Below, in pieces: positions 24,945 through 41,234 of a stretch of 41,870 bases of DNA; within the stretch, counting starts at the first letter, position 1; each line of letters opens with the position of its first letter. The DNA lies in IMG/VR virus record IMGVR_UViG_3300022745_000069, positions 1 to 41,870 of that record. One strand, 5' to 3'. A program made the translations under genes and the position numbers. Origin of the DNA: a virus. The notes beneath the pieces were generated by a model. The model was not told the DNA's origin. It saw only the letters and a list, made by a program, of their open reading frames with translations, and searched no databases.

Positions 24945-24950
24945 GTCCCC

Positions 24951-24984: not shown

Positions 24985-25029
24985 CACACGTTGCGACTTC
25001 CTCAAGGTCCGGTCGACTCGTTGCAACTT
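24985..25029. promoter_or_regulatory. Two operator-like sites (OL-type)
   Basis: CACACGTTGCGACTT (24985-24999) and GACTCGTTGCAACTT (25015-25029) resemble the 15-mer GAGTCGTTGCAACTC at 25067. They lie between the divergent repressor and excisionase-like genes and are candidate sites for the repressor. Confidence 0.6.
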
Positions 25030-25066
25030 GGTGAACAACGGGTGGCGAGTTAGCCAAGAGATGTCA

Positions 25067-25100
25067 GAGTCGTTGCAACTCGCATCGACTCGTATAGAGT
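25067..25100 (+). promoter_or_regulatory. Early rightward promoter with overlapping operator
   Basis: -35 TTGCAA (25073-25078), 16-nt spacer, -10 TAGAGT (25095-25100). The operator-like 15-mer GAGTCGTTGCAACTC (25067-25081) covers the -35, and the inverted repeat GACTC-GTATA-GAGTC (25088-25102 region) covers the -10. Transcription would start at about 25107-25108, the GTG of the next gene, with no leader. Confidence 0.72.
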
Positions 25101-25107
25101 CTTCCTC

Positions 25108-25305
25108 GTGACACCGTTGAGTGAGCGCAAAGGCGCTCTCAGTCTCGCCGACGCTGCGCGTTGGTTGGACATCTCGCCGAGCTCGCTTCGCCGGCTCCGT
25201 CACATCGACGCGTCGTTCCCGACCCTCCGGGTGGGCTCACGCGTCCTCGTGCCCATGGCCGCGCTCGAAGCGTGGCTCGACTCACGTACCGGGAGGGTTT
25301 CGTGA
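25108..25305 (+). CDS. Excisionase / AlpA-like HTH protein
   Basis: 65 aa, GTG start placed right at the predicted transcription start. ALSLADAARWLDISPSSLRR (10-29) is the helix-turn-helix; FPTLRVGSRVLVPMAALEAW and LDSR match the 'f...r.g.r..v....le.wl' end of the excisionase/AlpA (helix_turn_helix 17) family. As first gene of the early operon opposite the repressor, it could be the excisionase or a Cro-like switch protein. Its TGA overlaps the next GTG. Confidence 0.75.
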   Translation: MTPLSERKGALSLADAARWLDISPSSLRRLRHIDASFPTLRVGSRVLVPMAALEAWLDSRTGRVS

Positions 25306-25538
25306 TCGTCCTCTGCATCATCGGCGGGCTCAGTCTCGCCGTGTCCCTGCTCGCCTTGGAGGTCGGCTACCAGCGCCGCCGCCACCTCTACTGGAAGGGT
25401 CGGGCCGAGAAGTGGCGCCAGGTGGCCAAGGCCGCCGACGAGCGCGTCACCGCGGCCATGCTCACGGTCGAGGAGATGCGCGCCAACATCGACGCCCTCG
25501 GCCAGCTCGCCGACGACCACTTCGTGGCCGCCCAGTGA
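25302..25538 (+). CDS. Membrane-anchored small protein
   Basis: 78 aa from GTG 25302 (GGGAGG at 25291-25296). Residues 1-21 (MIVLCIIGGLSLAVSLLALE) are one membrane segment. The rest is a charged helix: YQRRRHLYWKGRAEKWRQVA, KAADERVTAAMLTVEEMRAN. Positive residues right after the segment suggest the tail is cytoplasmic. Unknown role; membrane proteins in the early operon of temperate phages often take part in exclusion, but nothing here shows it. Confidence 0.7.
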   Translation: MIVLCIIGGLSLAVSLLALEVGYQRRRHLYWKGRAEKWRQVAKAADERVTAAMLTVEEMRANIDALGQLADDHFVAAQ

Positions 25539-26017
25539 ACGGCTACGTGAGCGCCCGCACCGAGCCGCTTCAGCCCGGTGTCTACCCCCAGCCCGACGAC
25601 TCCGTGGACCTCGCGTTCGAGAGCGTGCTGACGGGCTCGCCCGTGTTCACGGCCTCGCTCACGCGGAAGGAGTTGCGGTACCTCTGGTATCGCATCGAAG
25701 ACGTCCTCAACCGTCGTGACGATCGCGTCGACGTCGCCGAGCCCGAGGACGAGGACGCCGACGCCGACGACGACTACGACGCCGACGAGATCGCCGAGCG
25801 CGAGCAGGGCTTCGTCAGCATCCTCAACGTCGTGGCCGTCGGCGAGACGATCTACAACTGCCTCGGCGCCCCGTTCACGGTCATGGCGAAGGTGGACGAC
25901 ACCACCGCCGTCGTGAAGCGCCCCGGCGCCTCACAGGGCCAGCGGGCCGCGTTCCCGGGCATGTGGAAGAACCAGAACGGCGCGCCGATTCTGCTCGTGC
26001 TCGCACCCGGCGACTGA
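25535..26017 (+). CDS. Unknown acidic protein
   Basis: 160 aa, GTG in a GTGA overlap (a second GTG at 25547 is possible). The N-terminal third contains FTASLTRKELRYLWYRIEDV; the middle is an acidic stretch rich in Asp/Glu/Ala around residues 70-88; the end is a small beta domain (FVSILNVVAVGETIYNCLGA, PFTVMAKVDDTTAVVKRPG, GAPILLVLAPGD). No family known to me. The gene ends at the left arm of a large hairpin. Confidence 0.65.
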   Translation: MNGYVSARTEPLQPGVYPQPDDSVDLAFESVLTGSPVFTASLTRKELRYLWYRIEDVLNRRDDRVDVAEPEDEDADADDDYDADEIAEREQGFVSILNVVAVGETIYNCLGAPFTVMAKVDDTTAVVKRPGASQGQRAAFPGMWKNQNGAPILLVLAPGD

Positions 26018-26019
26018 CC

Positions 26020-26125
26020 GGCGCTGCGCCCTGGGGCTCGCTCGCCCCGGTCAGAGCTGAAGCGCCCCTTCCCCCAAGCGGCTCCGGCTCCCGGTGCGGC
26101 GAGCGGGCCACCAGGGCGCAGCGCC
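26020..26125. repeat. Large imperfect inverted repeat (about 27-bp stem)
   Basis: Perfect 15-bp arms (26020-26034 with 26111-26125), then a second paired block (26035-26046 with 26098-26109, one G-T pair, one bulged A), then CCGG with CCGG (26047-26050 with 26091-26094). About 40 nt remain as the inner loop. It fills the 137-bp gap between two genes. It may act as a terminator, a structured RNA or a remnant of a small inserted element. Confidence 0.7.
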
Positions 26126-26154
26126 ACGACAACCAACGATCGAAGGAGGCCCTC

Positions 26155-26307
26155 ATGGGCAACAACCAACCGACCACCGTGGAGAAGACGCCCGCCGACG
26201 ACGCGGCGATCCGTTCCACCCATCCGTCCCGCGGGCGGCGTGGCCACGCCGACGACGCCGTGCGCGCCGCCCGCGAGGCGATGGGCCAGAAGCCGGAGAG
26301 CGACTGA
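26155..26307 (+). CDS. Small charged protein
   Basis: 50 aa from ATG 26155 with a very good ribosome-binding site (GAAGGAGG, 26142-26149). The sequence is polar and probably disordered: NNQPTTVEKTPADDAAIRST, HPSRGRRGHADDAVRAAREA. No function known to me. It is the first gene after the large hairpin, and its strong initiation site suggests it is well translated. Confidence 0.6.
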   Translation: MGNNQPTTVEKTPADDAAIRSTHPSRGRRGHADDAVRAAREAMGQKPESD

Positions 26308-26308
26308 C

Positions 26309-26551
26309 ATGCTCACCGGACCTCCGGCCCCGCCCGTCACCCCGCCGACGACCGCGTTCGTCTGCCCGTTCCCTCGGACGCACTACGGGTGCGTGCCGAC
26401 CCGCCCGCGGCCGCACGCGCCGCACCCGCGGCCGAAGCCCCGCGTCACCATCGTCGCCACGCCGACGCTCATCGACCCCGTGTGCTACGTGCGCATCGAG
26501 GGCCACGTCCTGCAGCATCCGTGCAGCTCGACCCCGGCGAGGGTCCGATGA
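26309..26551 (+). CDS. Proline-rich small protein
   Basis: 80 aa from ATG 26309, 1 nt after the previous stop. The first half is Pro/Arg/His-rich (PPAPPVTPPTTAFVCPF, PTRPRPHAPHPRPKP), the second half has three strands (RVTIVATPTLIDPVCYVRIE, GHVLQHP). Four cysteines are not in a metal-binding pattern. The stop is in an ATGA overlap with the WhiB gene. It could be real but is less certain than its neighbours, since high-GC shadow frames also look Pro/Arg-rich. Confidence 0.5.
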   Translation: MLTGPPAPPVTPPTTAFVCPFPRTHYGCVPTRPRPHAPHPRPKPRVTIVATPTLIDPVCYVRIEGHVLQHPCSSTPARVR

Positions 26552-26943
26552 TGTTCACGGCCTACGGCGCACCGTGCACCGTGAAGGACCCCGGGCTGTT
26601 CTTCGACGAGGAGCGCGAGGACGAGGCCGTGAAGGCCTGCACAAACTGCAGCCGCCGCGACGCCTGTCTCGACTGGTCGATCGGCGAGCGACTCTACTAC
26701 CACGGCGTGTTCGGCGGGAAGACGCCGAAGCAACGCCGCACCATCGCACGAGCGCGGGGGAAGAACGTCCCGTCGCTCATGCGTCTCAACCTCACGGGCC
26801 TGCCCGACACGGCGAACGAGGTCGTGCGGAAGTTGCTCGCCAACGGCCTCACCGTGGAGGAGATCGCCGCCCGCACCGGTCGGCCGATCAAGGCCATCGA
26901 GGGCGTGCGCGACCGCGACCGTCGCAAGGCGGTGGCCGCATGA
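26548..26943 (+). CDS. WhiB-family regulator with C-terminal HTH
   Basis: 131 aa, ATG 26548 in an ATGA overlap (ATG 26551 also possible). The four iron-sulfur cysteines are Cys10 and Cys31-x2-Cys34-x5-Cys40, followed by the family turn YYHGVFGGKTPKQR (residues 50-63; usually GVWGG, here Phe for Trp). Usual WhiB proteins end soon after this. Here residues 85-125 (ANEVVRKLLANGLTVEEIAA, RTGRPIKAIEGVRDRDRR) add a second helix-turn-helix of sigma-region-4/LuxR-like type. It probably controls transcription through host sigma factor contact. In mycobacteriophages, WhiB proteins affect host septation and exclusion. Confidence 0.85.
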   Translation: MMFTAYGAPCTVKDPGLFFDEEREDEAVKACTNCSRRDACLDWSIGERLYYHGVFGGKTPKQRRTIARARGKNVPSLMRLNLTGLPDTANEVVRKLLANGLTVEEIAARTGRPIKAIEGVRDRDRRKAVAA

Positions 26944-27281
26944 ACGAAGGCATCCTCGCCGAAGTCTCGGCCGAGCGCGAGCGGCAGGTGCGGAAGTTCG
27001 GCGTGCAGAACTGCCCGTCGTTCCGTCCGAGGGCGGACCGCCCGACCACGCTCGCGGCGGTGCTCGTGCAGCACGGTCTCTCGACCACGAACCTGAAGTG
27101 GGAGTGCGAGTTCGCCTTCGAGGACAACGAGGGCTCGTGGGCGGCCATCCTGCTCGAAGAAGTGTGGGAGGCCTTCGAGGCGGGCTTCCTCGGCCGCACG
27201 AGCGACCTCCGCGAGGAACTCGTGCAGGTCGCCGCCGTCGCCGTGGCGTGGGTGGACTACATCGACCGGGAGGGCCCGTGA
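26940..27281 (+). CDS. MazG-like nucleotide pyrophosphohydrolase
   Basis: 113 aa, ATGA overlap. ILAEVSAERERQVRKFGVQN opens, then AAILLEEVWEAFEAGFLG and LREELVQVAAVAVAWVDYI give the EExxE...ExxD-like helical pattern of the all-alpha NTP-PPase fold: paired Glu on the first helix and Glu on the second bind Mg. Phage versions hydrolyse (d)NTPs or lower (p)ppGpp. It fits with the HD hydrolase at 34007 in a nucleotide-handling set. Confidence 0.75.
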   Translation: MNEGILAEVSAERERQVRKFGVQNCPSFRPRADRPTTLAAVLVQHGLSTTNLKWECEFAFEDNEGSWAAILLEEVWEAFEAGFLGRTSDLREELVQVAAVAVAWVDYIDREGP

Positions 27282-27340
27282 AGCGGCGCGTGCGAGCCCT
27301 CATGCTCGCCATCGCACTGTGGTTCGGGAGGCCGCGGTGA
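27278..27340 (+). CDS. Very small basic ORF (possible leader peptide)
   Basis: 20 codons (GTG start; KRRVRALMLAIALWFGRPR), with GTGA overlaps at both ends. It links the MazG-like gene to the nuclease gene. It has a hydrophobic centre between basic ends. Either a true tiny gene or simply a coupling device that carries ribosomes to the next start. Confidence 0.35.
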   Translation: MKRRVRALMLAIALWFGRPR

Positions 27341-29379
27341 GCATCCCTCTCGGCAACATCGCCGAGCACGGCCCGCACTACAACGAGGACGGCGACCGCT
27401 ACCTGCTCCGGTTCCCGGGCGAGAAGAAGGCGAAGACCTACACCCGCGTCACCACGCTCGTGAAGGCCGCCGACTCGACGTTCGGGCTCGAAGACTGGAA
27501 GATCGCCATGGCCATGCTCGGCATGGCGAAGTCGGCGCCGTTGCGCACCGACGTGGCCACACTGCTCGCCGAGTTCCCCGACCCGTGGTACGACTCGCCC
27601 GAATCGAAGCGACGCCTGAAGGCGCTCGTGAAGCGGGCCCCGGACCTCGGTGGCGGTGGAGAGCGGCGCGACACCGGCACGGCGTTGCACTCGCTGTTCG
27701 AGGGCGTCGTGCGTGGCAAGTACGCGCCGGACCGCATCGGCGACGAGTGGCGTGCGCACATCACGCGGGCCACCGAGGTGCTCGCCGAGTTCGGGATCAC
27801 GCTCGTGCCCGAGTTGTGCGAGGTGACGCTCTACCACAAGGGCTACAACGCCGTCGGCCGCACCGACTTCGCGGGCATGTTCGAGGGCGAGCTCTACGTC
27901 GGCGACCTGAAGACCGGCGGGAACACGTGGGTGCCGAAGATCGACTACCGCACCCGGAAACAGACCGGGTGGCAGGACGGCTACGCGATCAACGACAAGA
28001 CGCACGCCGGGCAGATGTACGTCTACGCCTCGGCCGACAACCTCGTGGAGTGGCCCGCCGACAAGTGGGACGAGTGCACGCTGCACCCGGCGCCCGCCTA
28101 CAACCAGGAGCGCGGCTTCATCCTCCACATGCCTTCCACCGAGGACGCTCAGGTGTCCATCCGGTGGGTGGACCTGAAGAAGGGGAAGGAGTGGGTGCAG
28201 ACGTGCGAGAAGGTGCGCAAGGCGCGCAACCTGAAGCCGCTCATCGAACGCCTCGGTGCGGTCGAGCCGCCCATGCCGGAGAACGGCACGCCGGCCCCTG
28301 AGGTCGACATCGACGAGCTTCTCGCCGAGGTGAACGGGGAGGCCCCGCCGCTGCGCGAGGAGGAGCACGAGGCGGCGCTGGCCGCCGAGCCGAGCTTCCT
28401 CGATCGGGTCACCGTGTCGAACGACGCGGCGAAGCTCGTGACGCCCGCCGAGGTGGCGGCCGCGGTGCCGAACCCCGCCGTCGACCCCGTGGCCGTGGCC
28501 GAGATGGTGAACACCCTCGCCGCTGCGCCCGAGACCGTGCTGGACGACGCCGAGGCGATCGTGGCCGCGAAGAAGGGCCCACTCGACTTCTCGAAGGTGA
28601 GCCTCGAACCGTGCGCGCCCGAGCGGCGTGCGTGGATCATCGCCCGAGTGAAGACGCTCGGCGACTCGGGCTACACGAGCCAGCTCGTGGCCGCCTGGCC
28701 GTCGATGGTGCCGACGCTCCGGCAGGAGGGCCACACGGAGGCCGACGTCGACCTCCTGGCCCGCATGTGCGACGGCATCGAGGACGAGTACCGCGTGCCG
28801 TTCTTCATGCCCGATCCGGCCACGGCCAAGGTCGAGCCGGAGCCCGAGCCCGCGGCGCCTCGTGTCCTGCCCGAGCTGCCCGACGAGATCGGGCCCGCGC
28901 CGTACGACGAGGTGGCCGCGATGCTCACCACGTTCGCGGCCTACCCCGAGGACGTGAAGACGATCATCCTCGGGTGGTCGACGGACGCGAGCCTCGTGGA
29001 GAAGGGCTTCTCACTGCGCCTCGCGTCGACGCTCCGGCGTCTCGCCATCTACCGCACGATCGACTTCCTCGTCCGGGCCGAGTTCGTGGCCGACGACGAG
29101 GCCGTGCGGTCGCTCATCTTCCATGCCACCGGTGACCGCTTCGTGCTCGATGCGCACACCACGGTCGGCGTGGAACTCGCACGTCTCGATCCGAAGGCGT
29201 GCTCGATCATCGACCAGGTGTGCGCCGCGAGCCTGCAGGGCCGCGCCACCGCCACGGTCGACCCTGACCTCGGTGTCGTCCGTTGGACGATCACCGAACC
29301 TGCACCGGTGAAGTTCAAGCCGGTGCCCCCGCCGGCCCCGCCGGCACCGGTGGCGCCGCCCCTGGCGTCACTGATCTGA
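27337..29379 (+). CDS. Cas4/RecB-like PD-(D/E)xK nuclease, long form
   Basis: 680 aa from GTG 27337. Residues 20-330 carry the nuclease: YTRVTTLVKAADSTFGLEDW, GGGERRDTGTALHSLFEGVV (the conserved His helix), YHKGYNAVGRTDFAGMFEGE with Asp177, and LYVGDLKTGG with Asp190-x-Lys192. No four-Cys cluster is visible, so this is the cluster-free version. Residues 345-680 are an added part: acidic/Ala linkers, a helical segment (FSKVSLEPCAPERRAWIIAR), a second helical unit (YDEVAAMLTTFAAYPEDV) and a Pro-rich end. Phage homologues are usually about 250-320 aa. Followed by a probable ssDNA-binding protein, so likely part of recombination. Confidence 0.82.
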   Translation: MSIPLGNIAEHGPHYNEDGDRYLLRFPGEKKAKTYTRVTTLVKAADSTFGLEDWKIAMAMLGMAKSAPLRTDVATLLAEFPDPWYDSPESKRRLKALVKRAPDLGGGGERRDTGTALHSLFEGVVRGKYAPDRIGDEWRAHITRATEVLAEFGITLVPELCEVTLYHKGYNAVGRTDFAGMFEGELYVGDLKTGGNTWVPKIDYRTRKQTGWQDGYAINDKTHAGQMYVYASADNLVEWPADKWDECTLHPAPAYNQERGFILHMPSTEDAQVSIRWVDLKKGKEWVQTCEKVRKARNLKPLIERLGAVEPPMPENGTPAPEVDIDELLAEVNGEAPPLREEEHEAALAAEPSFLDRVTVSNDAAKLVTPAEVAAAVPNPAVDPVAVAEMVNTLAAAPETVLDDAEAIVAAKKGPLDFSKVSLEPCAPERRAWIIARVKTLGDSGYTSQLVAAWPSMVPTLRQEGHTEADVDLLARMCDGIEDEYRVPFFMPDPATAKVEPEPEPAAPRVLPELPDEIGPAPYDEVAAMLTTFAAYPEDVKTIILGWSTDASLVEKGFSLRLASTLRRLAIYRTIDFLVRAEFVADDEAVRSLIFHATGDRFVLDAHTTVGVELARLDPKACSIIDQVCAASLQGRATATVDPDLGVVRWTITEPAPVKFKPVPPPAPPAPVAPPLASLI

Positions 29380-29402
29380 CCCACAGACCCTAGGAGAGTC
29401 AC

Positions 29403-29984
29403 ATGGGCATCCCGCTCGGCAACAACCGAGAGACCCTGCCGTCCTTCAAGTTCGAGGAGGTGGGTGCGCTCGCTCGCTACGTCATCATCGACGTGGACGA
29501 GAGCGCCCCTCTCATGAACTACCACGACGGCAAGCAGAAGGAGTACGAGGGCAAGCTGCGCACGCAGGTGGGCCTGACCGTGTTCGCCATCGACGGCTGC
29601 ACGGCGACGGTCGGCACCGGCAAGGGCGACGCGAAGGAGCGCCGCGCCGTGAAGCCCGGCGAGATCGTCACGCTCTACATCTCGGGCCACAACCGGTTCG
29701 ACCCGGACAGCCCCGAGCACCAGACGTACGCGGTCGCGCAGAAGAAGCGCGGTCAGATCGAGGTCGGCGACTTCGGCGGCGCCCGCTTCGAGCGGACGGA
29801 GCCCGGCCGCGGCACCGAGCCGAAGAAGATCATGAGCTACGCCTTCCGGGCCCCGAACCCGGACGTGGCCGTGGAGATGGAGTGGAAGGCGGCGGCCGAG
29901 GCCGAGTACGCCAAGCGCCACCCGGGCATCGCCGTCGGCGCGTCGCCGTCGGCGCAGTCCGCCTCGGACGCCGGACTCATCTAA
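29403..29984 (+). CDS. Probable ssDNA-binding protein
   Basis: 193 aa with AGGAGA at 29392-29397. The middle has an OB-fold-like run of strands: VGALARYVIIDVDESAPLMN, GKLRTQVGLTVFAIDGC, AVKPGEIVTLYISGHNRF, HQTYAVAQKKRGQIEVGD and YAFRAPNPDV. This pattern and position after the Cas4-like nuclease match proteins that actinophages use as ssDNA-binding partners. The C-terminus is Ser/Ala-rich, lacking the acidic tail of classical SSB. Function is inferred. Confidence 0.62.
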   Translation: MGIPLGNNRETLPSFKFEEVGALARYVIIDVDESAPLMNYHDGKQKEYEGKLRTQVGLTVFAIDGCTATVGTGKGDAKERRAVKPGEIVTLYISGHNRFDPDSPEHQTYAVAQKKRGQIEVGDFGGARFERTEPGRGTEPKKIMSYAFRAPNPDVAVEMEWKAAAEAEYAKRHPGIAVGASPSAQSASDAGLI

Positions 29985-29986
29985 CG

Positions 29987-30184
29987 ATGAGGGCGGCCCG
30001 AGTCGTCATCGAGGCGTGGATCGGCTACGACCCGGCCGCGTTCGGCGACGACGACAACTTCATGGACCGCTTGCGCACGGCGCTCGTGGACTGTGAGGCC
30101 CTCAACTACTCCGTCGACATCGACGGCCCCGAGGGCTCGACGTACGGCGAGGTCCGCGTCATCGACGTGGAGTTCGCCGACTGA
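29987..30184 (+). CDS. Unknown small protein
   Basis: 65 aa, ATG 2 nt after the previous stop. AARVVIEAWIGYDPAAFGDD, FMDRLRTALVDCEALNYSVD, TYGEVRVIDVEFAD: a ferredoxin-like alpha/beta arrangement with acidic ends. No family known to me. Followed by a hairpin that separates it from the next gene. Confidence 0.62.
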   Translation: MRAARVVIEAWIGYDPAAFGDDDNFMDRLRTALVDCEALNYSVDIDGPEGSTYGEVRVIDVEFAD

Positions 30185-30188
30185 ACCA

Positions 30189-30220
30189 GGGGCGAGGGCC
30201 GTTGCCGCGGCCCTCGCCCC
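30189..30220 (+). terminator. 13-bp hairpin between genes
   Basis: Perfect stem 30189-30201 with 30208-30220, six-base loop. No T-run follows; probably attenuation or mRNA processing within the early operon. Confidence 0.65.
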
Positions 30221-30249
30221 ACCCACTACGCAACCGGGAGGAATACGCA

Positions 30250-30819
30250 ATGGAGAACACGCGTGCACGCGTGCTCACGACCGCCAACGCGGCGGTCAAC
30301 GGAGATCGTAACAACCAGTACGGGGACCCGCGGCAGGACTTCCGACGCACGGCCACGATGTGGACCGCACTGCTCGGCGAGAAGCTCGGGGACCACGCCA
30401 TCGAGGCGCACGAGGTGGCGCTCATGATGGCTCTGCTCAAGGTGAGCCGCCTCGCCTGGTCGGCCACGAAGGCGGACTCGTGGGTGGACCTCGCCGGCTA
30501 CGCGGCGTGCGGCGCCGACTGTGTCGACGGCCTGCAGGGCTGGCCCGAGGTGCGCACCGCACCCGAGCCCAAGGTCGAGCGCGGGGCCCGCCACAGGGCC
30601 CACCATGCCGAGGCCATCGTCGGCGACCTGATCGTGTCGAGCCTCTCCGGCGCGCGCTGGCGCGTCGTGGCGGTCGAGAGCCAGCGGAAGGCGACCATCT
30701 CGTATCTCGATGGCGACGGCCGCCACCAGAACGTCCCGATCGACCTCGATGACGACGCCAGCGAGCCGTGGCGCCTGTTCACGACGACGGGCCCTCGCGT
30801 GTCGGGCTTCCTCGCGTGA
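30250..30819 (+). CDS. DUF6378-like protein
   Basis: 189 aa with GGGAGGAA at 30236-30243. Residues 1-95 have the DUF6378 plan: LTTANAAVNGDRNNQYGDPR, QDFRRTATMWTALLGEK, IEAHEVALMMALLKVSRLAW and DSWVDLAGYAACGADC. Found in many phages and prophages near replication genes; its biochemical function is unknown to me. The helical plan with paired acidic residues recalls MazG-like folds. Residues 115-189 form a small added beta domain (GDLIVSSLSGARWRVVAVES). Confidence 0.75.
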   Translation: MENTRARVLTTANAAVNGDRNNQYGDPRQDFRRTATMWTALLGEKLGDHAIEAHEVALMMALLKVSRLAWSATKADSWVDLAGYAACGADCVDGLQGWPEVRTAPEPKVERGARHRAHHAEAIVGDLIVSSLSGARWRVVAVESQRKATISYLDGDGRHQNVPIDLDDDASEPWRLFTTTGPRVSGFLA

Positions 30820-31310
30820 ACGTCGTCGGGCTCGACCTCTCCCTCGTGGCCACCGGCGTGGCCTACTCCGACGGCACCACGGCCACCGTGAAGACCAAGG
30901 CCGAGACGCCGATCATGGAGCGGCTCGAATGGATTCGGACCCGGTGCTACGAGGCGGTGCGCATCGACGAGCACGCCGACCTCGTGGTGATCGAGGACTT
31001 CGTGGTCCTCTCGAACGCCTCGTCGTTGCTCGGCATGTTGCACGGCGTCGTCCGGCACAACCTGTGGGCGAACGACGTGCGGTGCCTGTTCATCCCGCCG
31101 TCCACGCTGAAGAAGTTCGCCACCGGCAAGGGCAACGCCACGAAGCCGGACATGCGCGTGGCCCTGAAGGACCGCACCGGCATCGACCTCCGCGACGACA
31201 ACCAGTGCGACGCGTACTGGCTGCGCCTTCTCGGCCTCCACCTGCTCGGTGAGCCCGCCGTGCAGCTCCCGCAGACGCACACCGATGCGCTGAAGAAGGT
31301 GGTGGGGTGA
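30816..31310 (+). CDS. RuvC-like Holliday junction resolvase
   Basis: 164 aa from GTG 30816 in a GTGA overlap. VVGLDLSLVATGVAYSDG gives the first acidic residue (Asp7) with the DxS pattern, LVVIEDFV gives Glu60, and DLRDDNQCDAYWLRLLG gives Asp128 and Asp132 in the last helix, as in RuvC-family resolvases (RNase H fold). HGVVRHNLWANDVRCLFIPP and LKKFATGKGNATKPDM are typical of the phage group. It would resolve recombination or replication junctions before packaging. Confidence 0.85.
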   Translation: MNVVGLDLSLVATGVAYSDGTTATVKTKAETPIMERLEWIRTRCYEAVRIDEHADLVVIEDFVVLSNASSLLGMLHGVVRHNLWANDVRCLFIPPSTLKKFATGKGNATKPDMRVALKDRTGIDLRDDNQCDAYWLRLLGLHLLGEPAVQLPQTHTDALKKVVG

Positions 31311-32449
31311 CCCTCACGGCCGCCACCGCGTGCTCGGGCATCGAAGGCATCGGCCTCGGGCTCGAACGGTGCGGCATCCCCATCGTGTGGAACTCGGAGA
31401 TCGAGCCGCACGCGAACGCCGTGCTGGCGCGGCACTGGCCCGATGTCCCGAACCTCGGCGACATCAAACTGATCGATTGGAGCACCGTTGAGCGGCCCGA
31501 CATCTTCGCCGCCGGATACCCCTGTCAGCCCTTCTCCCTCGCGGGCTCGCGTAAAGGTGAAGCGGACCCGCGTCACCTCTGGCCGTATGTGGCCCGAGCC
31601 ATTCGCGCGCTACGACCTCGCTTCGTCATCTTGGAGAACGTGCCCGGACACCGAAGCCTCGGGTTCGACGCCGTTCTCGGCGATCTGGCCGCGTGCGGGT
31701 ACGATGCTGAATGGGACGGCATACCAGCTTCCTCCGTCGGCGCCCGTCACCAGAGGGACCGTCTCATCGTTGTTGCCTACCCCCACGGCGGCACGGTACG
31801 GACGGAACCGGTCGGTGTCTTCCGGCGCATCGGATCGTCTCTCGCTGCAGCAGATGGCGTCGCGGGGCGAGTGGCCGGACCAACCGATGTGGCCGACGCC
31901 GCGGGTGTCGGCGGACTGCACGTCGGCGTGGGCGGCGAAGGACATCACGAAGCGGTCGAGCCCGAGCCTCGCTCAGGCGGTCGAGCTGGCCGCCGGAGTG
32001 CTCCCGCGGGAAGTGGAGAGCCTGGCGGAAGTGCCACCGTCGTGGGCGGCGTTGTGGCCTCAGGCGAGCGACCTGTGGCCGACGCCGATCGCGAGGGACG
32101 GACGGACACCGAAGGGCGCGGCGAGAATGCCGACGGCCGAGGGCTCGGACCCGCTGGCGGTGGTGGTCGGTGGGCCGTTGAATCCCGAGTGGGTCGAATG
32201 CCTCATGGGGTTCCCGCGTGGTTGGACGGCTCTTGGGAGCGAGACGTCCCTCGCTCCGCGCCTCGTGCGAAAGACGCACGGCGCCGGATCAAGGCCCTCG
32301 GCAACGCGTGCGTCCAGCAGGTCTTCGAGTACGTCGGGCTCTGCCTCATCGACGCCTTCGACCTCTACGACGAGATCGAGTTCGAGTCGGTCGAAGCCGG
32401 CGAGCTCGACGCCCTCCACGAAGCCGAAGGGGAAGCCGATGACGCGTAG
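31307..32449 (+). CDS. DNA (cytosine-5) methyltransferase
   Basis: 380 aa from GTG 31307 (GTGA overlap). C5-methyltransferase motifs in order: I TACSGIEGIGLGLERCG; IV GYPCQPFSLAG with catalytic Cys73; VI VILENVPG (Glu110); VIII VGARHQRDRLIVVAYP (Arg150-Asp-Arg152); and X IKALGNACVQQVFEYV near the end. The target-recognition region (about 165-310) is very Gly/Ala/Glu-rich but includes WAVESRVGRMPHGVP, a pattern I know from phage relatives. It may protect phage DNA from host restriction. No cognate restriction gene is in the window. A second reading frame across most of this gene also looks coding. Confidence 0.88.
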   Translation: MTLTAATACSGIEGIGLGLERCGIPIVWNSEIEPHANAVLARHWPDVPNLGDIKLIDWSTVERPDIFAAGYPCQPFSLAGSRKGEADPRHLWPYVARAIRALRPRFVILENVPGHRSLGFDAVLGDLAACGYDAEWDGIPASSVGARHQRDRLIVVAYPHGGTVRTEPVGVFRRIGSSLAAADGVAGRVAGPTDVADAAGVGGLHVGVGGEGHHEAVEPEPRSGGRAGRRSAPAGSGEPGGSATVVGGVVASGERPVADADREGRTDTEGRGENADGRGLGPAGGGGRWAVESRVGRMPHGVPAWLDGSWERDVPRSAPRAKDARRRIKALGNACVQQVFEYVGLCLIDAFDLYDEIEFESVEAGELDALHEAEGEADDA

Positions 32450-33782: not shown

Positions 33783-33785
33783 CCC

Positions 33786-34896: not shown

Positions 34897-36113
34897 CCGT
34901 GCTCGACCACGCCCTCGGCTACGCCCGGATCGGCTGGCGCGTCGCACCGGTGAAGCCGGGGACGCGCTGGCCGCGCATCGACGCGTGGCAGGAGAACGCG
35001 TCCACGGAGCGCTCGGAGATCGAGCGGTGGTGGACGCAGTGGCCCGACTCGGACGTGAGCGTCGTGTGCGGGCGCGAGAGCCGCCTGTGGGTGCTCGACG
35101 TGGACGTGAAGAACCACGCCGGTGGCGACGAGAGCCTCGCCATGCTCATCGAGGAGCACGGGCCCCTCGGGGACACGCTGACGGTGCAGACGCCCTCGGG
35201 CGGCCGTCACTACTACTGGCGCTGGCCGGAGGGCGACGTCGAGCTGACGACGTCGGCGAGCCAGGTGGCGCCCGGGATCGACGTGCGGGCCACCGGTGGG
35301 CAGGTGGTGGCGCCGCCGAGCATGGACGGCGGCTACGTGTGGTCGTTCGACGGCGGCGACCCGCTCGAAGGTGAGCTGCCCGCGTACGCGCCCGAGTGGC
35401 TCGTGCGGGTGGTGGTGGAGGCCGCGAGAGAGCGCCACGTCGAGCCACGTCGAGCTCGCCGCACCGACGCCGACATGGACCTGCCCGGCGACTACTTCGC
35501 GGCCACGGTGTCGTGGGCGGCGATGCTCGAAGCGGACGGGTGGACGTTGCACTCGGTGCACGGCGGCACCGAGCTGTGGACGCGCCCGGGGAAGGACAAG
35601 CGGGACGGGCCGTCGGCCAGCCTCTACTACGGCGGGAGCGACACGCTGAAGGTGTTCTCCTCCGCGCCGGAGCTGACGAAGCTCGGGCTCGAAGCGGGGA
35701 AGACCTACGAGCGCTTCGGCTACCTCGCGGCGTCGCGCTACGGCGGCGACCACGCCGCGGCGGCCCGGGCGGTGCGCACGGTGATGCCGAGGCGGCCCGC
35801 CATCGTGCTCGCCGGCTCCACGCCCTCGAGACCGACGAAGTCTACTTCCGGTATCGATGACATGCTGGCGCCGCCCGTGGCGCCCGGGCCCACCGAGAGC
35901 GACGACCCCGAGCCCGCCCTGCTCGACGAGGACCTGCTCGACGCTCTCCCGCCGCTCACACGGCCGCCCGGGCCCGGGATCGCCCGCCCGGAGGACTGGC
36001 ACGGCATGAGCCTCCGCGCTGACGCCGAGCGGCGCCTCGCCGGCGAGCCCCCGGAGCGGCCGCGGCTCGGGCTCGTGCATCCGGCCGGGACCCGCCCGAC
36101 CGTTCCCCTGTGA
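34893..36113 (+). CDS. Bifunctional DNA primase/polymerase (prim-pol, AEP)
   Basis: 406 aa from GTG 34893. Residues 1-170 are the prim-pol domain: ALGYARIGWRVAPVKPGTRW, WWTQWPDSDVSVVCGRESRL, WVLDVDVKNHAGG with the metal-binding Asp69-x-Asp71, LTVQTPSGGRHYYWRW with His106, and GIDVRATGGQVVAPPS with Asp130. All AEP catalytic residues are present. Residues 190-290 form a second domain (WAAMLEADGWTLHSVHGGTE, RPGKDKRDGPSASLYYGG) found in phage primases. The C-terminal 110 residues are Pro/Ala/Asp-rich. It works with the ATPase encoded next to start replication. Confidence 0.9.
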   Translation: MTVLDHALGYARIGWRVAPVKPGTRWPRIDAWQENASTERSEIERWWTQWPDSDVSVVCGRESRLWVLDVDVKNHAGGDESLAMLIEEHGPLGDTLTVQTPSGGRHYYWRWPEGDVELTTSASQVAPGIDVRATGGQVVAPPSMDGGYVWSFDGGDPLEGELPAYAPEWLVRVVVEAARERHVEPRRARRTDADMDLPGDYFAATVSWAAMLEADGWTLHSVHGGTELWTRPGKDKRDGPSASLYYGGSDTLKVFSSAPELTKLGLEAGKTYERFGYLAASRYGGDHAAAARAVRTVMPRRPAIVLAGSTPSRPTKSTSGIDDMLAPPVAPGPTESDDPEPALLDEDLLDALPPLTRPPGPGIARPEDWHGMSLRADAERRLAGEPPERPRLGLVHPAGTRPTVPL

Positions 36114-36131
36114 ACTCGCATCGAGTAGGAT
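36103..36131 (+). promoter_or_regulatory. Promoter before the replicative ATPase
   Basis: -10 TAGGAT (36126-36131) with a weak -35 TTCCCC (36103-36108), 17-nt spacer. The spacer holds the inverted repeat ACTCG-CAT-CGAGT (36114-36126) and shares 12 bases, AACTCGCATCGA, with the early promoter (25077-25088). Start would be about 36138, four bases before the ATG; there is no ribosome-binding site. Confidence 0.5.
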
Positions 36132-36141
36132 CGACTCTCCC

Positions 36142-37347
36142 ATGGCTGAGGATGGACTCATCTACGACGGCCGCGTGTCGGCGATCTTCGGCCGCCCCGG
36201 TGGCGGGAAGACGTGGATCGCCGCCGACCTGATCGCGCAGACGATCAAGGCCGGGCAGTACGTGGCGTGGATCGACTACGAGGACACCTCACGGGGCGCC
36301 GCGGGCCGCCTGCTCGACCTCGGGTGCACCCTCGATGAGATCGACCGCGTCACGTACTACGCCCCGGCCACGTCGTTCGAGTGGGGCCTCATCGCCCTGC
36401 AGGAGGACGTGATCGCCGCGGGCCGAGAAGTGGCTCTCGTCGTGCTCGACTCCGTCGGCGAGGCCCTTGCCGCGTCGGCCGTGAAGGGCGGCGAGGACGA
36501 CGGCGTGGCGGCGTTCATGCGGTGGGTGCGCGCCTGGGCGGCGGCGCCGAGCTCGCCCGCGGTGCTCGTGATCGACCACGTGCCGAAGGCTGAGGACGCA
36601 CCGAAGGGCTACGCCATCGGGTCCCAGCGCAAGCTCGCGGCGATCACCGGGGCGGCGTACCTCATCGAGACGCTGCAGGAGCCTGCTCGTGGCGTTGACG
36701 GCACCTTGAAGATGACGGTGGCGAAGGATCGGCTCGGGGCTCGGCCGAAGGACTCCACGGCGGCCCTGGTGCACGTGCGGACCAACGCCTCGGGCGCGGT
36801 GCGGCTCACCTTCGTGGCCCCTCGCACGGACGTCACGGCGGACGCCACGGAGGCCGGCGGTGCGGGCGCTGAGGTCGTGTTCCGGCCGACCGGGCTCATG
36901 GAGCGGGTGTCGACGTGGCTCGAATCAGTACCTCGGGGTGCCTCTCAGAGGGGGGTCCGGGGTGCGGTCACCGGCAAGGATCAGGCGCTCATTAAAGCAA
37001 TTGAGGTCCTGAGGGACGAGGGCTATATCACTGTCGATGGCACCGGGAAGTACCACTCGGCCCGGCCCTACCGCGAGTCGACGGACCCTCGGATGGCCTC
37101 GATGATCGCTGATCGGCCCGGGTGGTTCCCGGTGGTTCCCGGTGGTTCCCAGGTGGTTCCCGGGAACCACTTGATCCCGGCATCGGAGGGTGGTTCCCCC
37201 GGTTCCCGATCGGTCCCCCCCGTAGGGGGGGACCGGGCACCGGGGAACCACCCGAGCACCCTCGGAGGCACCACTTCGTCTCTGTTCTCGGCCGACGACG
37301 GGGAACCACCTCGGGGCGGCGCGGACGACCCCTCGGCCCTCTGGTAG
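36142..37347 (+). CDS. RecA/DnaB-like replicative ATPase (RepA type)
   Basis: 401 aa. Walker A is AIFGRPGGGKTW (15-25), Walker B is EVALVVLDSVGEAL (Asp103), and a later PAVLVIDHVPK holds the sensor-like Asp-His, as in hexameric RepA/DnaB-like helicases of phages with prim-pol. Residues about 250-310 (TGLMERVSTWLESVPRG, GKDQALIKAIEVLRDEGYIT) form a winged helix likely to bind DNA. The last 80 residues are Gly/Pro-rich low complexity because the DNA there carries repeated GGTGGTTCCC units. It probably unwinds DNA at the adjacent origin. Confidence 0.85.
   Translation: MAEDGLIYDGRVSAIFGRPGGGKTWIAADLIAQTIKAGQYVAWIDYEDTSRGAAGRLLDLGCTLDEIDRVTYYAPATSFEWGLIALQEDVIAAGREVALVVLDSVGEALAASAVKGGEDDGVAAFMRWVRAWAAAPSSPAVLVIDHVPKAEDAPKGYAIGSQRKLAAITGAAYLIETLQEPARGVDGTLKMTVAKDRLGARPKDSTAALVHVRTNASGAVRLTFVAPRTDVTADATEAGGAGAEVVFRPTGLMERVSTWLESVPRGASQRGVRGAVTGKDQALIKAIEVLRDEGYITVDGTGKYHSARPYRESTDPRMASMIADRPGWFPVVPGGSQVVPGNHLIPASEGGSPGSRSVPPVGGDRAPGNHPSTLGGTTSSLFSADDGEPPRGGADDPSALW
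37121..37310 (+). repeat. Iteron-like array inside the ATPase 3' end
   Basis: GGTGGTTCCC occurs at 37121, 37131 and 37141 (three in tandem), 37152 and 37189, and inverted as GGGAACCACC at 37243 and 37301, plus a nine-base inverted copy at 37162. A perfect 10-bp hairpin of C and G runs (37212-37221 with 37225-37234) lies between. Several copies within 190 bp next to a replication gene are typical of origin iterons. Confidence 0.72.
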
Positions 37348-37641
37348 CCGAGCCACACCTTCTCGGCCTCCCGTTGAAATGAAATGCGTCGGGAGTTCGG
37401 ATAATTGGCGGCCCGAACTTCAGTGGGCGGAAATGAAAGAGGGGACCCCCCTCGGCCTGGCGAAGGGGCCCCTTAAGCGGTGGCTAAATCTCTTAACCCA
37501 GGGTTATCACAGTTAACTCCCAGGTTCCGTTCATCTCCCGTTCATCTCGTGTCCACCTCCCGTTCACCGAACGGGTGTTCGTGTTAGGCTCACCTAACGG
37601 TCGCCTGGCTCTCGGCTCCACAGTTGCGAAAGAGGATTCGT
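37348..37641 (+). other. Non-coding gap, candidate replication origin
   Basis: No gene in 294 bp. In order it holds: AT-richer sequence than the surroundings (about 37372-37435); a palindrome AAGGGGCCCCTT; TAACCC-A-GGGTTA (37494-37506); GTTAAC; a perfect 11-bp tandem repeat CCGTTCATCTC (37527-37537 and 37538-37548) with a third partial copy at 37560; the inverted repeat CCCGTTC-ACC-GAACGGG (37559-37575); and GTTAGG-CTCA-CCTAAC (37583-37598), which overlaps a possible -10 for the next gene. Together with the array just upstream this is the best origin candidate in the window. Confidence 0.65.
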
Positions 37642-38310
37642 ATGTTGGCACTCCCGACCCCCGACGAGTGGAACGGTACGCTACGTCGGCTCGGCGCGGC
37701 GGTGGCCGATGCGCCCGAGCACGCTGACACGATCGGCCGAGCCCTACGGCGCGCCGTCCGCCACTCGTCCGCGGTGGACGGATGGTCGGCCGGACGGCGC
37801 GCGGGAGAGCAGGGGCGGACGTCGTCAGAGACGACCGTCGTAGAGTCGGCGGTGCTGGCGCGTGCTCGGGCGCGGATGGACGACCACGACCGCGCCACCG
37901 CTCGGGCGGTGCTCGCGCTCGGCCGAGCGGTGGACGCGCTCGAAGGGCTCGCGGTGGCGGTGGCCGAGCTGACCGACCTTCGCGCCGACCCCGAGGGACC
38001 CGCGGGCCGATGCTCGGTGCTCGGCGCGCATGGCATCGACGCGCCCGCGGAGCGGACGACGGACCTAGGTGGCCTACTGCCCGAGCGCGCCCCTGTCTCG
38101 CGGTGGGCTCGGGGGTTCGCGCTCACGAACGGTCGACTACCGAGCGCGGACGAGTGCCGCGCCCATGCTCGGGGCGAGCGCGTCGCGGTGGCGTCGCGCG
38201 CATCGATGACCGAACGCGCCGCGGCCGGCGGACCCCCGGACGACCAGGCGGACCCCCACGAGAGCCCACGAGAGCCGATCGCGGGCCCTGGTGGACACTC
38301 GGCGCGCTGA
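37642..38310 (+). CDS. Unknown Ala/Arg-rich protein
   Basis: 222 aa from ATG 37642, which has AGAGGA at 37631-37636. Helical throughout the first 150 residues: NGTLRRLGAAVADAPEHADT, IGRALRRAVRHSSAVDGWS, ARARARMDDHDRATARAVLA, LGRAVDALEGLAVAVAELTD. The end is Pro/Gly/His-rich and probably disordered. No family recognised. The first gene after the putative origin, possibly controlled by the inverted repeat at 37583-37598. Confidence 0.65.
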   Translation: MLALPTPDEWNGTLRRLGAAVADAPEHADTIGRALRRAVRHSSAVDGWSAGRRAGEQGRTSSETTVVESAVLARARARMDDHDRATARAVLALGRAVDALEGLAVAVAELTDLRADPEGPAGRCSVLGAHGIDAPAERTTDLGGLLPERAPVSRWARGFALTNGRLPSADECRAHARGERVAVASRASMTERAAAGGPPDDQADPHESPREPIAGPGGHSAR

Positions 38311-38332: not shown

Positions 38333-38347
38333 GCCCTGTGGTGGCGT

Positions 38348-38626
38348 TCATGGGCTCTCGGGCGGTGCGGTGGCACCGAGTACCCCACGAACGAACGCGT
38401 CCCTGTCTGACGACCACAGGGACCGTCGTCCGCGCTCGGCACCCGAGAGCCGACGCGCCAGCGCGCGGGCGTAGCGCTCGGCGGTGGTGACGTCGTCCGC
38501 GAGGATGGCGCGGTGGGTGGCGTAGAGGTCCTCTGAGAGCCCTGTGTCGTCCGCTAGGGCGAGACACGCGGCGTGGAAGGTCTGACATACCCACGACCAC
38601 CGCGACTCGGCGTCAGCGTGGCACAC
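38348..38626 (-). CDS. Unknown helical protein
   Basis: 92 aa from GTG 38626, which overlaps the preceding gene by 14 nt; the start is uncertain because the frame is open further upstream. HADAESRWSWVCQTFHAACL, ALADDTGLSEDLYATHRAIL, TTAERYARALARRLSGAERG, RRSLWSSDRDAFVRGVLG. Helical with Cys/Trp/His residues near the start, possibly buried. No family known to me. Last gene of the reverse cluster. Confidence 0.58.
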   Translation of the reverse strand: MCHADAESRWSWVCQTFHAACLALADDTGLSEDLYATHRAILADDVTTAERYARALARRLSGAERGRRSLWSSDRDAFVRGVLGATAPPESP

Positions 38627-38771
38627 GGCGCGGGTAGAACCACCGCACCGCGCCTGCGGCAAGGTCCGCTAGCGCGTGCTCGGTGGTTCGGTAGTGGGCG
38701 CGGGACACGCGTCCCGCGCCATCGGTCAGCATGAAGCCGCGCCCACTCGGGGCGCGGCGTACTCGGATCAT
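38613..38771 (-). CDS. Small basic protein
   Basis: 52 aa from ATG 38771, preceded by the leader block also found before the gene at 40648 (26 identical bases; GAAGGGA as ribosome-binding site). IRVRRAPSGRGFMLTDGAGR, VSRAHYRTTEHALADLAAGA, VRWFYPRRVPR. A short beta hairpin plus helix, strongly basic while its neighbours are acidic. This 'G.g.mltd..gr...a.Yrt...Al..l' plan recurs in small phage proteins, but I know no function. Confidence 0.62.
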   Translation of the reverse strand: MIRVRRAPSGRGFMLTDGAGRVSRAHYRTTEHALADLAAGAVRWFYPRRVPR

Positions 38772-38790: not shown

Positions 38791-38818
38791 GCGCGTCGGG
38801 GCTCGGCGCGCGGATGGC

Positions 38819-38856
38819 GCGGCACCACTCGGGCAACGTTGGCCGAGCGGTGCCGC
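38819..38856 (-). terminator. Hairpin after the gene ending at 38868
   Basis: 8-bp stem GCGGCACC with GGTGCCGC (38819-38826 with 38849-38856) continued, after one mismatch, by CTCGG with CCGAG. The palindrome CAACGTTG forms the loop. No long T-run. Confidence 0.55.
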
Positions 38857-38867
38857 GGCGCCGCGCG

Positions 38868-39644
38868 TCAGACCCGACCGCGGAGGAAGTTGCGCACGCG
38901 GTCCAAGTCGTCCGCGTTGAACGCGTCCCACCGAGCGTACGACGAATCCATCGCGGCCACGAGGGACGAGAGCAGGGACGGACCGTACTCACCTGAGAAT
39001 CCGTACCAGTAGTGCAACTCGCCGCACGCGATGGGGGCGAGGTCGTCCGCGTGGTCGAGTAGGAAGTCAGCGACCGCGTCGTCTTCCTCGTTCATGCCAT
39101 CCTCGCGGTTCATGGCCGAGCACACGTCGCGCACCTCGTCGCGCCATGCCATGGGGAGATACTCGTCCCATGCCGCGCTCTCGCGGCGCGAGTAGGCATC
39201 CTCGTCCAGGAAGGGGTAGTCCGAGAGACTGTCGAGACAGTCGCGCACCGCGTCCATCCGATCCTCGTTCGCGGGATCGACCAGGAGGAGAGCCGCGGAC
39301 GAGTGCCAGTCGCGGAGACTCATCCGCGGCACCATGGCGACGCCGACGGTCTTCGCCTCGGCCACGAGTGCGTCCCACGCCGCGGCGTAGGCATCGGGCC
39401 GGAGGTTCCACGTCGGCTCCACTCGGACGACGGTCCCACCGAGCGCGTCGATCAACGCGTCGTAGTTGGTCTCGTCCATCGCCTCTACGTCGTCCTCGTA
39501 GTAGCGCAACGTGCTCGGCACGTAGGCCACGACGTGCCACGACTGCAGCCCTTCGTAGTCGTCCGGTGAGTACGTCGCGTCGGCAACGGTCGGCAGGTTC
39601 GTGAACATGATCCCTGTGGTTTCCGTGTGGTTCGTGCGTGCCAT
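38868..39644 (-). CDS. Unknown acidic protein
   Basis: 258 aa from ATG 39644 with AAAGGGA upstream. Very acidic: LPTVADATYSPDDYEGLQSW, HVVAYVPSTLRYYEDDVEAM, DETNYDALIDALGGTVVRVE, RDEVRDVCSAMNREDGMNEE, DDAVADFLLDHADDLAPIAC. Many Trp and Tyr residues suggest a folded protein rather than a disordered one. High acidity could mean DNA mimicry, but no family is recognised. It has its own promoter with an operator-like site at 39665-39679. Confidence 0.68.
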   Translation of the reverse strand: MARTNHTETTGIMFTNLPTVADATYSPDDYEGLQSWHVVAYVPSTLRYYEDDVEAMDETNYDALIDALGGTVVRVEPTWNLRPDAYAAAWDALVAEAKTVGVAMVPRMSLRDWHSSAALLLVDPANEDRMDAVRDCLDSLSDYPFLDEDAYSRRESAAWDEYLPMAWRDEVRDVCSAMNREDGMNEEDDAVADFLLDHADDLAPIACGELHYWYGFSGEYGPSLLSSLVAAMDSSYARWDAFNADDLDRVRNFLRGRV

Positions 39645-39664
39645 GGTCGGTCCCTTTCGGTCGT

Positions 39665-39740
39665 GAGTCGGTGCGACTCGGTGCGATCAGAGTAACGCAC
39701 CGCTACCGATCGTAAGTGGATTCGAGATGAACAAACGGTG
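39665..39740 (-). promoter_or_regulatory. Right-arm promoter/operator, copy 1
   Basis: On the reverse strand: a conserved block TTTGTTCATCTCGAATCCAC, then -10 TACTCT (39694-39689), then the perfect inverted repeat GAGTCG-GTG-CGACTC (39665-39679) just downstream of the predicted start. Closely similar to 41159-41234. A poor -35 suggests activator help. Confidence 0.65.
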
Positions 39741-39780
39741 AGCTCTAAGGTGCTCGATGAGCCGATGCTCGGGCGCGCCA

Positions 39781-39814
39781 GTAGGGCCCACCGCGCCAGC
39801 GCGGTGGGCCCTAC
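39781..39814 (-). terminator. Terminator hairpin
   Basis: Perfect 15-bp stem (39781-39795 with 39800-39814), loop CCAG, 16 nt past the stop of the gene ending at 39830. Its GGGCCCACCGCG stem is also used by the hairpin at 41275. Confidence 0.82.
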
Positions 39815-39829
39815 GTCGGTGCTCGGTGG

Positions 39830-40648
39830 TCAGTCGCGCCCCATGATGAAGACAGGGCCCATGGGCTCGGCGCCGCGCTCACGAGTGATGCGCACCACGC
39901 GGATATCCAGTGCGTTCGGGTCCCACCCGAGCGCGTCGATCGTGAGGGTAGGCACGTCGTCCACCATGGCGAACGTGACCGCGACCGCGAGGCCTCGGCA
40001 CTCAAGTGCCGCGCTATCGCTATCGTCGTCGTCGTCGTCCGCACCCGGGTGGACAGTCGCGCCGTCGTAGCGACAGGGACCGTCGCACAAGTCGCACACG
40101 TCGTCGTCGTCGTCGTCGTGGTCGTACTCGTGGGGGCACCGATCCGCGGGGGTCGGCTCTGTCCACGTGTGGCCACACGTACCGCACTCGTAGACCGCGG
40201 TATCGTCCGCGAGCCCCATATCGGTGCGGTGGGCGCGCCGAGCGCGTCGCGTGCTCTCGTCCACCGCGGTGGCATCGAACGCGTCACCCTTCTCGCGCAT
40301 CGATGACGAACCACACACCCAACATGAACCCTCGTCCGAGTCGTAGTGGTTGTCGCACACGTTGCACGCGGCGTCGTGTCCCCACTCGCGGTACTCGTCT
40401 TCCAACGTCTGGTAGGCCTCGGCCGCGGCGTCGATCGTGGCGTACCGCTCGCACCACACGAAACCGCGGTCGTCACCGCGGAGCACGCGGCGACCGTAGA
40501 GGGAGAACCACCCGGAAGGGCTCTCGGCGTCACCAGACCACGCGTCGGCGTAGTCCGAGCCGATGTGGTCGAGATACTCGGCCATGGCATCGGCGTACTT
40601 GTAACGGGCGGTGCTCTGGTCGATCGTGGTTCCGTCGCGGAGGATCAT
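39830..40648 (-). CDS. Acidic protein with several CxxC zinc sites
   Basis: 272 aa from ATG 40648. The N-terminal part (ARYKYADAMAEYLDHIGSDY, GWFSLYGRRVLRGDDRGFVW, DAAAEAYQTLEDEYREWG) may be a separate fold. Then three zinc-ribbon-like pairs: CNVCDNHYDSDEGSCWVCG, YECGTCGHTWTEP and CDLCDGPCRYDG, separated by long Asp runs encoded by GAC/GAT triplet repeats. The C-terminus is a small beta domain (VAVTFAMVDDVPTLTIDALG). CxxC ribbons point to nucleic acid or protein binding. No family known to me. Ends at a strong hairpin. Confidence 0.68.
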   Translation of the reverse strand: MILRDGTTIDQSTARYKYADAMAEYLDHIGSDYADAWSGDAESPSGWFSLYGRRVLRGDDRGFVWCERYATIDAAAEAYQTLEDEYREWGHDAACNVCDNHYDSDEGSCWVCGSSSMREKGDAFDATAVDESTRRARRAHRTDMGLADDTAVYECGTCGHTWTEPTPADRCPHEYDHDDDDDDVCDLCDGPCRYDGATVHPGADDDDDDSDSAALECRGLAVAVTFAMVDDVPTLTIDALGWDPNALDIRVVRITRERGAEPMGPVFIMGRD

Positions 40649-40667
40649 GGTTGGTCCCTTCGTAGGG
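40642..40667 (-). repeat. Leader repeat, copy 2
   Basis: Identical over 26 bases to 38765-38790, covering ribosome-binding site and first codons. The identity stops on both sides, so it is a conserved leader element rather than part of a longer gene duplication. Confidence 0.75.
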
Positions 40668-40683
40668 TCGGTGGTCGGTCGGT

Positions 40684-40750
40684 GCTGACCGAACGCACAT
40701 GGGCCGAGCACCGCCGCGTGGGCGGTGCTGGCGCGGCGCGTTCGGTCAGC
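40684..40750 (-). terminator. Nested inverted repeat over a stop codon
   Basis: Outer 13-bp perfect arms (40684-40696 with 40738-40750) enclose a 9-bp hairpin (40707-40715 with 40721-40729). The stop of the gene at 40746 is inside the outer arm. Likely terminator for that gene. Confidence 0.7.
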
Positions 40751-41138
40751 GGACGTAGTAGGTGACGCCGTCGAAGGTGACCGCGGTGTAGTCCTCTTTC
40801 AGCGCGTCGGCCGCGGCGTCCCAATCGATATGGCGCCATGGCCACTCGTTCAGCACCTTGGGCCGCGGGTAGGGCATCGTGTCCTCGGCCAACTCTCGGG
40901 CGTAGTCCGTGAAGTAGCTCTCACGAACGCACACCGCGCCGTAGGTCCAGTCTTCCGAGTAGTCCGCGGCTTCCTGAGCGAACGAGATCAGCGCGTCCAG
41001 CTCGGTCACGAGGTCCTTACGTTCGTCGTTCGGCGTGTCCTCGTCGTCCAGCATCGCGGTGAGGCTTTCGATGCGTGCGATCACGTCGCGGCTGTCGATC
41101 ACGTCGTCATCGTTCGTGGGGATCGGCTCGTAGGTCAT
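40746..41138 (-). CDS. Acidic phage protein of a widespread unknown family
   Basis: 130 aa from ATG 41138. DVIARIESLTAMLDDEDTPN, DERKDLVTELDALISFAQEA, then VRESYFTDYARELAEDTMPY and WPWRHIDWDAAADALKEDYT, AVTFDGVTYYVR. The end 'esyF.dYArelAeD......wP...iDW..Aa..L..DYt.v.fdGvtYy.R' is a pattern I know from many unrelated phages and plasmids; some relatives have been labelled antirestriction-like, but I regard the function as open. It has its own promoter/operator copy at 41159-41234. Confidence 0.75.
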   Translation of the reverse strand: MTYEPIPTNDDDVIDSRDVIARIESLTAMLDDEDTPNDERKDLVTELDALISFAQEAADYSEDWTYGAVCVRESYFTDYARELAEDTMPYPRPKVLNEWPWRHIDWDAAADALKEDYTAVTFDGVTYYVR

Positions 41139-41158
41139 GGTCGGCCCTTTCGGCTCGG

Positions 41159-41234
41159 GAGTCGGTGCGACTCGGTGCGATCAATGTAACCCACCGCTAC
41201 ACCTCGTGAGTGGATTCCAGATGAACAAACGGTG
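41159..41234 (-). promoter_or_regulatory. Right-arm promoter/operator, copy 2
   Basis: Reverse strand: TTTGTTCATCTGGAATCCAC, -10 TACATT (41188-41183), then GAGTCG-GTG-CGACTC (41159-41173) just after the predicted start. Near-identical to the copy at 39665-39740, including the upstream block and distance to the ATG. Confidence 0.65.

Follow-up and report, generated by a model that had tools for sequence, protein, structure and literature searches.

The closest precedent for the arrangement described below is the repressor of mycobacteriophage BPs (PMC4557955). This protein, gp33, acts at the operators OR, O6, O27, O55 and O61, which are palindromic sites at promoters in small intergenic regions; binding has been proven, and several promoters are repressed in the lysogen (PMC4557955). 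A related principle is that of lambda cI, one repressor that serves separate early promoters through short dyads (PMC4557955, introduction). The stoperators of Cluster A phages (L5/Bxb1) are asymmetric and 13 to 14 bp long; they follow the direction of transcription, number 20 to 30 per genome and mostly lie away from promoters (PMC6550527, PMC9283540). In the SAS/ESAS system of Cluster K phages, a conserved element immediately adjoins the start codons in some non-structural genes, in some cases with an inverted repeat just upstream; SAS is the 13-bp GGGATAGGAGCCC, and the inverted repeats are 17 bp (PMC3203893).

The window analysed here, 41,870 bases with a G+C content of 69.6%, is a whole virus record. 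The record begins just 5' of the portal gene, and the phage sequence is therefore probably incomplete. The gene map places structural genes rightward up to about 22 kb, an early operon running rightward from 25108 to 37347 and leftward transcription in the right arm beyond about 38.3 kb. Intergenic DNA accounts for only 5.75% of the window. No close relatives of the phage were detected in viral_contigs, genome_contigs or phages when the leader DNA and the repressor, right-arm proteins, primase, exonuclease, integrase and HTH_17 protein served as queries. Matches of the exonuclease to phages of Mycobacterium, Streptomyces and Gordonia point to a high-G+C actinobacterium as the likely host, and the phage is probably a temperate, uncharacterised actinobacterial phage.

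Between the convergent operons lies a strong hairpin, GAAAGCCCCCGCACCGAGTCGGTGCGGGGGCTTTC (22179-22213), that has a 12-mer in common with the right-arm leader described below and is likely a two-way terminator. Four small overlapping leftward genes (22229-23023, minus strand) follow between the CHAP-domain/lysis-side genes and the integrase; they have their own TANNNT promoter, without a dyad, and may form a cargo operon that the lysogen expresses. One of the products (22456-22659) has a helix-turn-helix look by eye and no match in Pfam or PADLOC.

A scan for sigma-70 consensus promoters returned none by its own criteria; the boxes given here were assigned by eye. The immunity region and early promoter contain the following features.

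23008 to 24417: integrase gene, converging on the repressor gene.
24576 to 24944, minus strand: candidate immunity repressor (122 aa, pI 9.65).
24950 to 24955, minus strand: candidate -10 box TACGAT of a putative repressor promoter of the leaderless type (TANNNT 6 nt before the ATG).
24989 to 24999, plus strand: asymmetric core CGTTGCGACTT of the 24985 copy, without a dyad.
25014 to 25029, plus strand: CGACTC-N4-CAACTT of the 25015 copy, direct-repeat half-sites 10 bp apart.
25067 to 25081: dyad operator 1, GAGTCG-TTG-CAACTC, covering the -35 box of the early promoter (rightward).
25073 to 25100, plus strand: predicted early promoter TTGCAA-16-TAGAGT, by inspection.
25086 to 25101: extra half-sites CGACTC and GAGTC, giving ACTC-N5-GAGT over the -10.
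25108 to 25305, plus strand: first early gene, HTH_17/excisionase-like (65 aa; Pfam HTH_17 E 1e-7; phrog_66).

The candidate repressor matched Pfam HTH_31 with an E-value of 1.2e-4, under the curated cut-off, and had no match among PDB sequences or, by tblastn, among phage records. In single-sequence AlphaFold2 predictions, the best model reached a pLDDT of 82 (the other four, 57-61) and consists of five helices followed by one long C-terminal helix (residues 85-121). The predicted model has the five-helix HTH of the XRE/lambda-repressor-like fold, and its fold matches were mostly XRE proteins, among them C.Esp1396I, HipB, 434 and P22 c2, at weak E-values (Foldseek E >0.2; VIA Z up to 7.6). 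The product is thus predicted to be an XRE-type protein that would fit a dimeric repressor, and such a fold makes it the likely binder of the dyads described below. Upstream of its gene, at 24977-24989, is a perfect dyad, GTGTG-AAA-CACAC, unique in the window and a possible autoregulation site.

The early promoter is predicted from TTGCAA at 25073-25078 and TAGAGT at 25095-25100, the latter 7 nt before the GTG start at 25108, which has no Shine-Dalgarno sequence. Only four genes in the record have a TANNNT box 5-12 nt before the start codon: the repressor gene, the genes at 25108 and 36142, and the gene at 22823-23023. The repressor, 25108 and 36142 genes are thus probably leaderless or nearly so, which would place core promoter elements beneath the operators at 25067 and 36123.

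An earlier, sequence-only reading had linked the immunity region to the right arm through a 15-bp motif, with one copy overlapping the early promoter -35 and two just past predicted right-arm starts. All of its sequences and positions, this placement, and the agreement of the 25067 site with those at 39665 and 41159 (13/15) were confirmed. It had also listed weaker copies at 24985 and 25015. The former is indeed weak (10/15 to 25067), but the latter is not (13/15), and neither is a dyad: each retains three of the six arm pairs, and the part common to these copies is only CGTTGCRACTY. With one mismatch or fewer, that core has exactly five matches, the five sites originally described. The 25067 site keeps five of six arm pairs. 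The element common to the strong sites is therefore better written as the dyad GAGT-N7-ACTC (GAGTMG-NNN-CRACTC), which occurs four times in the 41.87 kb (25067, 36123-36137, 39665 and 41159), each time intergenic and at a gene start. The centres of its outer GAGT and ACTC boxes are separated by 11 bp, roughly one turn of the helix.

The 36123 dyad was absent from the earlier reading and was not used to define the motif. Its surroundings are as follows.

36113 to 36124, plus strand: AACTCGCATCGA, identical to 25077-25088.
36123 to 36137: dyad operator 2, GAGTAG-GAT-CGACTC, over the candidate -10 TAGGAT (36126-36131).
36142 to 37347, plus strand: RecA/AAA_25-type ATPase gene (Pfam AAA_25 E 5e-11), probably leaderless.

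Operator 2 occupies the 28-bp gap that precedes the 36142 gene. When 1386 windows of 60 nt were compared with the early promoter region, only the flank of operator 2 had a 12-mer in common with it; the longest word shared by any other window was 10. In addition, ACTC-N5-GAGT is found in the early promoter and the 36142 promoter and nowhere else. Thus, a motif taken from two loci predicts a third intergenic site that independently resembles the early promoter.

The other two dyads lie in the right arm.

38613 to 38771, minus strand: small gene downstream of protein A, with the start element and without its own dyad.
38868 to 39644, minus strand: acidic right-arm protein A (258 aa, pI 4.1).
39642 to 39750, minus strand: right-arm leader A (predicted promoter, operator, translation start).
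39665 to 39679: dyad operator 3, GAGTCG-GTG-CGACTC, a perfect dyad at about +4 to +18.
39830 to 40648, minus strand: acidic gene downstream of the ArdA-like gene, with the start element and without its own dyad.
40746 to 41138, minus strand: ArdA-like antirestriction gene (130 aa, pI 4.05; about 40% by tblastn).
41136 to 41244, minus strand: right-arm leader B, the second repeat copy.
41159 to 41173: dyad operator 4, same as operator 3, at about +4 to +18.

The predicted minus-strand -10 boxes are TACTCT (39694-39689) and TACATT (41188-41183), and operators 3 and 4 are each followed, 20 nt further on, by an ATG (39644 and 41138, respectively). Leaders A and B are one 109-nt repeat, 85% identical from promoter to start codon. 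Both right-arm copies proposed earlier are present, but they count as one event and are not independent, which leaves three independent dyad sites. All four long right-arm products have a pI of 4.05-4.21, values expected of DNA mimics that are no proof of mimicry. The 40746-41138 product is ArdA-like by its sequence matches to annotated genes: 40% over 94% to the ArdA-like gene of prophi86-1, and 41% to an antirestriction gene of a Citromicrobium phage. It had no match in Pfam, protein A had none among phage records, and PADLOC returned none for the right-arm and 22-kb genes tested. The dyad is absent from two distant ArdA-like loci in other sequences. It is conceivable, though doubtful, that the 109-nt leader, with its promoter, a repressor site right past the start and a start element for ribosome binding, is a portable control cassette copied before unrelated acidic anti-defence genes, which would put new accessory genes at once under prophage control.

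Several further elements were seen in this part of the genome. Large G+C-rich hairpins between the right-arm genes (39784-39812, 41276-41306, 40684-40750 and 38818-38857) look as though they insulate each gene from its neighbour. The sequence GTTCATCT has only four copies, two in an 11-bp-spaced repeat array at 37529-37566, in the gap 37347-37642, and one per right-arm promoter (39725-39732 and 41219-41226); it is possibly an activator or origin element. Adjoining the array in the same gap, TTATCACA at 37504-37511 resembles a DnaA box, and the region is a possible replication origin.

A start-associated element, CGAAGGGACCRACCATG or a close variant, precedes the starts at 38771, 39644, 40648 and 41138 (minus strand). 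There are two ways to read the right-arm motif, as DNA or as RNA. As RNA, it would form a 6-bp hairpin, GAGUCG-CAC-CGACUC, near the 5' end of the two leaders, serving to stabilise the mRNA or adjust its translation; the resemblance to 25067 would then be fortuitous. The hairpin is present in both predicted short-leader folds, and the leaders have a start element in common, as in Cluster K phages. However, the folding of the short leader does not stand out from that of shuffled sequences (z -0.5 and -1.7), and the identical type of dyad occurs upstream of a leaderless start at 25067 and over a -10 at 36123. The downstream genes at 40648 and 38771 also carry the start element, there CGAAGGGACCAACC, without the dyad, so the dyad tracks promoters and not translation. 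Since the predicted transcript begins downstream of the 25067 motif, all the sites are better accounted for by a DNA-binding protein, and we regard the RNA explanation as quite improbable.

GAGT-N7-ACTC has four matches where Markov models expect 0.25-0.6, and the other spacers between GAGT and ACTC (0-6 and 8-20) give 0-2 matches each. Allowing one mismatch or fewer in 12, GAGTCGN3CGACTC also has four matches, all intergenic, against 0.5 expected. Neither pattern occurs within coding genes anywhere in the window, so the equally good genic matches that would have counted against the earlier reading were not found. Among dyads without a genic copy, this is the commonest intergenic one, and its half-sites GAGTYG/CRACTC number 12 in intergenic DNA against 3.7 expected. 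The loose 15-mer with 3 mismatches is not above chance (24 matches against 27.8 expected in shuffles).

It could be argued instead that no common factor is involved, that the GAGTCG and CGACTC words recur by chance and that the right-arm pair is merely a duplicated promoter. The independent sites number only three, and in a blind test across all dyads, with the right-arm copies counted once, an equally good dyad arose in 32 of 250 simulated genomes (13%). This is suggestive only and not significant alone; it is the conditional tests that carry the case. The 12-mer of the right-arm leader also recurs in the likely terminator, at 22188. Chance recurrence does not account for the spacer specificity and the exclusively intergenic placement, or for a 12-mer common only to the promoters at 25077 and 36113, and we consider it very unlikely. 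Our judgement is that the four sites probably are a common operator.

Which protein binds this common operator is a separate question. HTH_17/excisionase proteins typically bind direct repeats near attP. A regulator other than the repressor, such as the 25108 protein acting like Cro or as an early regulator, could use the dyads to shut down or activate promoters in lytic growth. The DNA-binding domain of the 25108 protein is the better supported (HTH_17 E 1e-7), and its gene is directly downstream of operator 1. However, most of the dyads lie well away from the integrase, and every one is an inverted repeat, unlike typical sites of this protein family. We therefore think it unlikely that the dyads are operators of a regulator other than the repressor; by analogy with Cro and cI, the 25108 protein may share them with it. 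For the repressor encoded at 24576-24944 as the operator binder, our judgement is favourable with some reserve. The earlier proposal that it silences both the early operon and the right arm gains from the independent fourth site and the predicted XRE fold, and loses in that the right-arm pair is one event and two of the five original sites have no dyad.

On balance, we favour GAGTMG-NNN-CRACTC as the operator of the immunity repressor, most likely the XRE protein encoded at 24576-24944, silencing early, replication and accessory genes. The repressor would bind the dyad as a dimer. In the lysogen it would occupy (i) the -35 to -10 region of the early promoter (25067-25101), (ii) the -10 of the internal leaderless promoter that would serve the RecA/AAA-type gene (36123) and (iii) positions just downstream of the two leftward right-arm promoter starts (39665 and 41159). 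The silenced set would comprise the early operon, the replication/recombination gene and the acidic accessory genes, including the ArdA-like anti-restriction gene, and upon infection or induction all four promoters would turn on together, as early genes.

This proposed regulon is like BPs in having a small repressor that adjoins a divergent early gene, an early-promoter operator among core promoter elements, and palindromic sites in few small intergenic regions across the genome (four intergenic, none genic), here at predicted promoters. It differs in operator sequence, which in BPs is CGACATATGTCG, and in that binding is proven there and the operators are predicted from sequence here. In BPs, attP lies inside the repressor gene and immunity is integration dependent, whereas here the integrase is separate (23008-24417).

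As in Cluster A, one repressor would act at many places in the genome, right-arm genes included. We rejected a stoperator system, given four symmetric dyads, each at a predicted promoter, and only five copies of the asymmetric core. The layout of the right-arm leaders is like that of Cluster K SAS/ESAS, from which the 15-bp dyad differs in also occurring in promoters without a start element. SAS/ESAS itself was rejected: the element before four right-arm starts is CGAAGGGACCRACC or a close variant and not GGGATAGGAGCCC.

Lambda has tripartite operators at two promoters, and its cI carries a C-terminal peptidase-like domain. The phage studied here resembles lambda cI at OL and OR in its XRE-fold repressor (predicted here), separate early promoters and short dyads. 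Unlike lambda, it has single dyads, supplemented by further half-sites at just two places, the early promoter and 36113, and its candidate repressor has only a C-terminal helix.

If the proposed reading is true, the BPs-style arrangement, a principle already established in itself, would extend beyond cultured mycobacteriophages. The four sites would constitute a small, testable lysogeny regulon for a phage without known relatives, in which anti-restriction-type genes would be kept off in the prophage and freed alongside the early genes.
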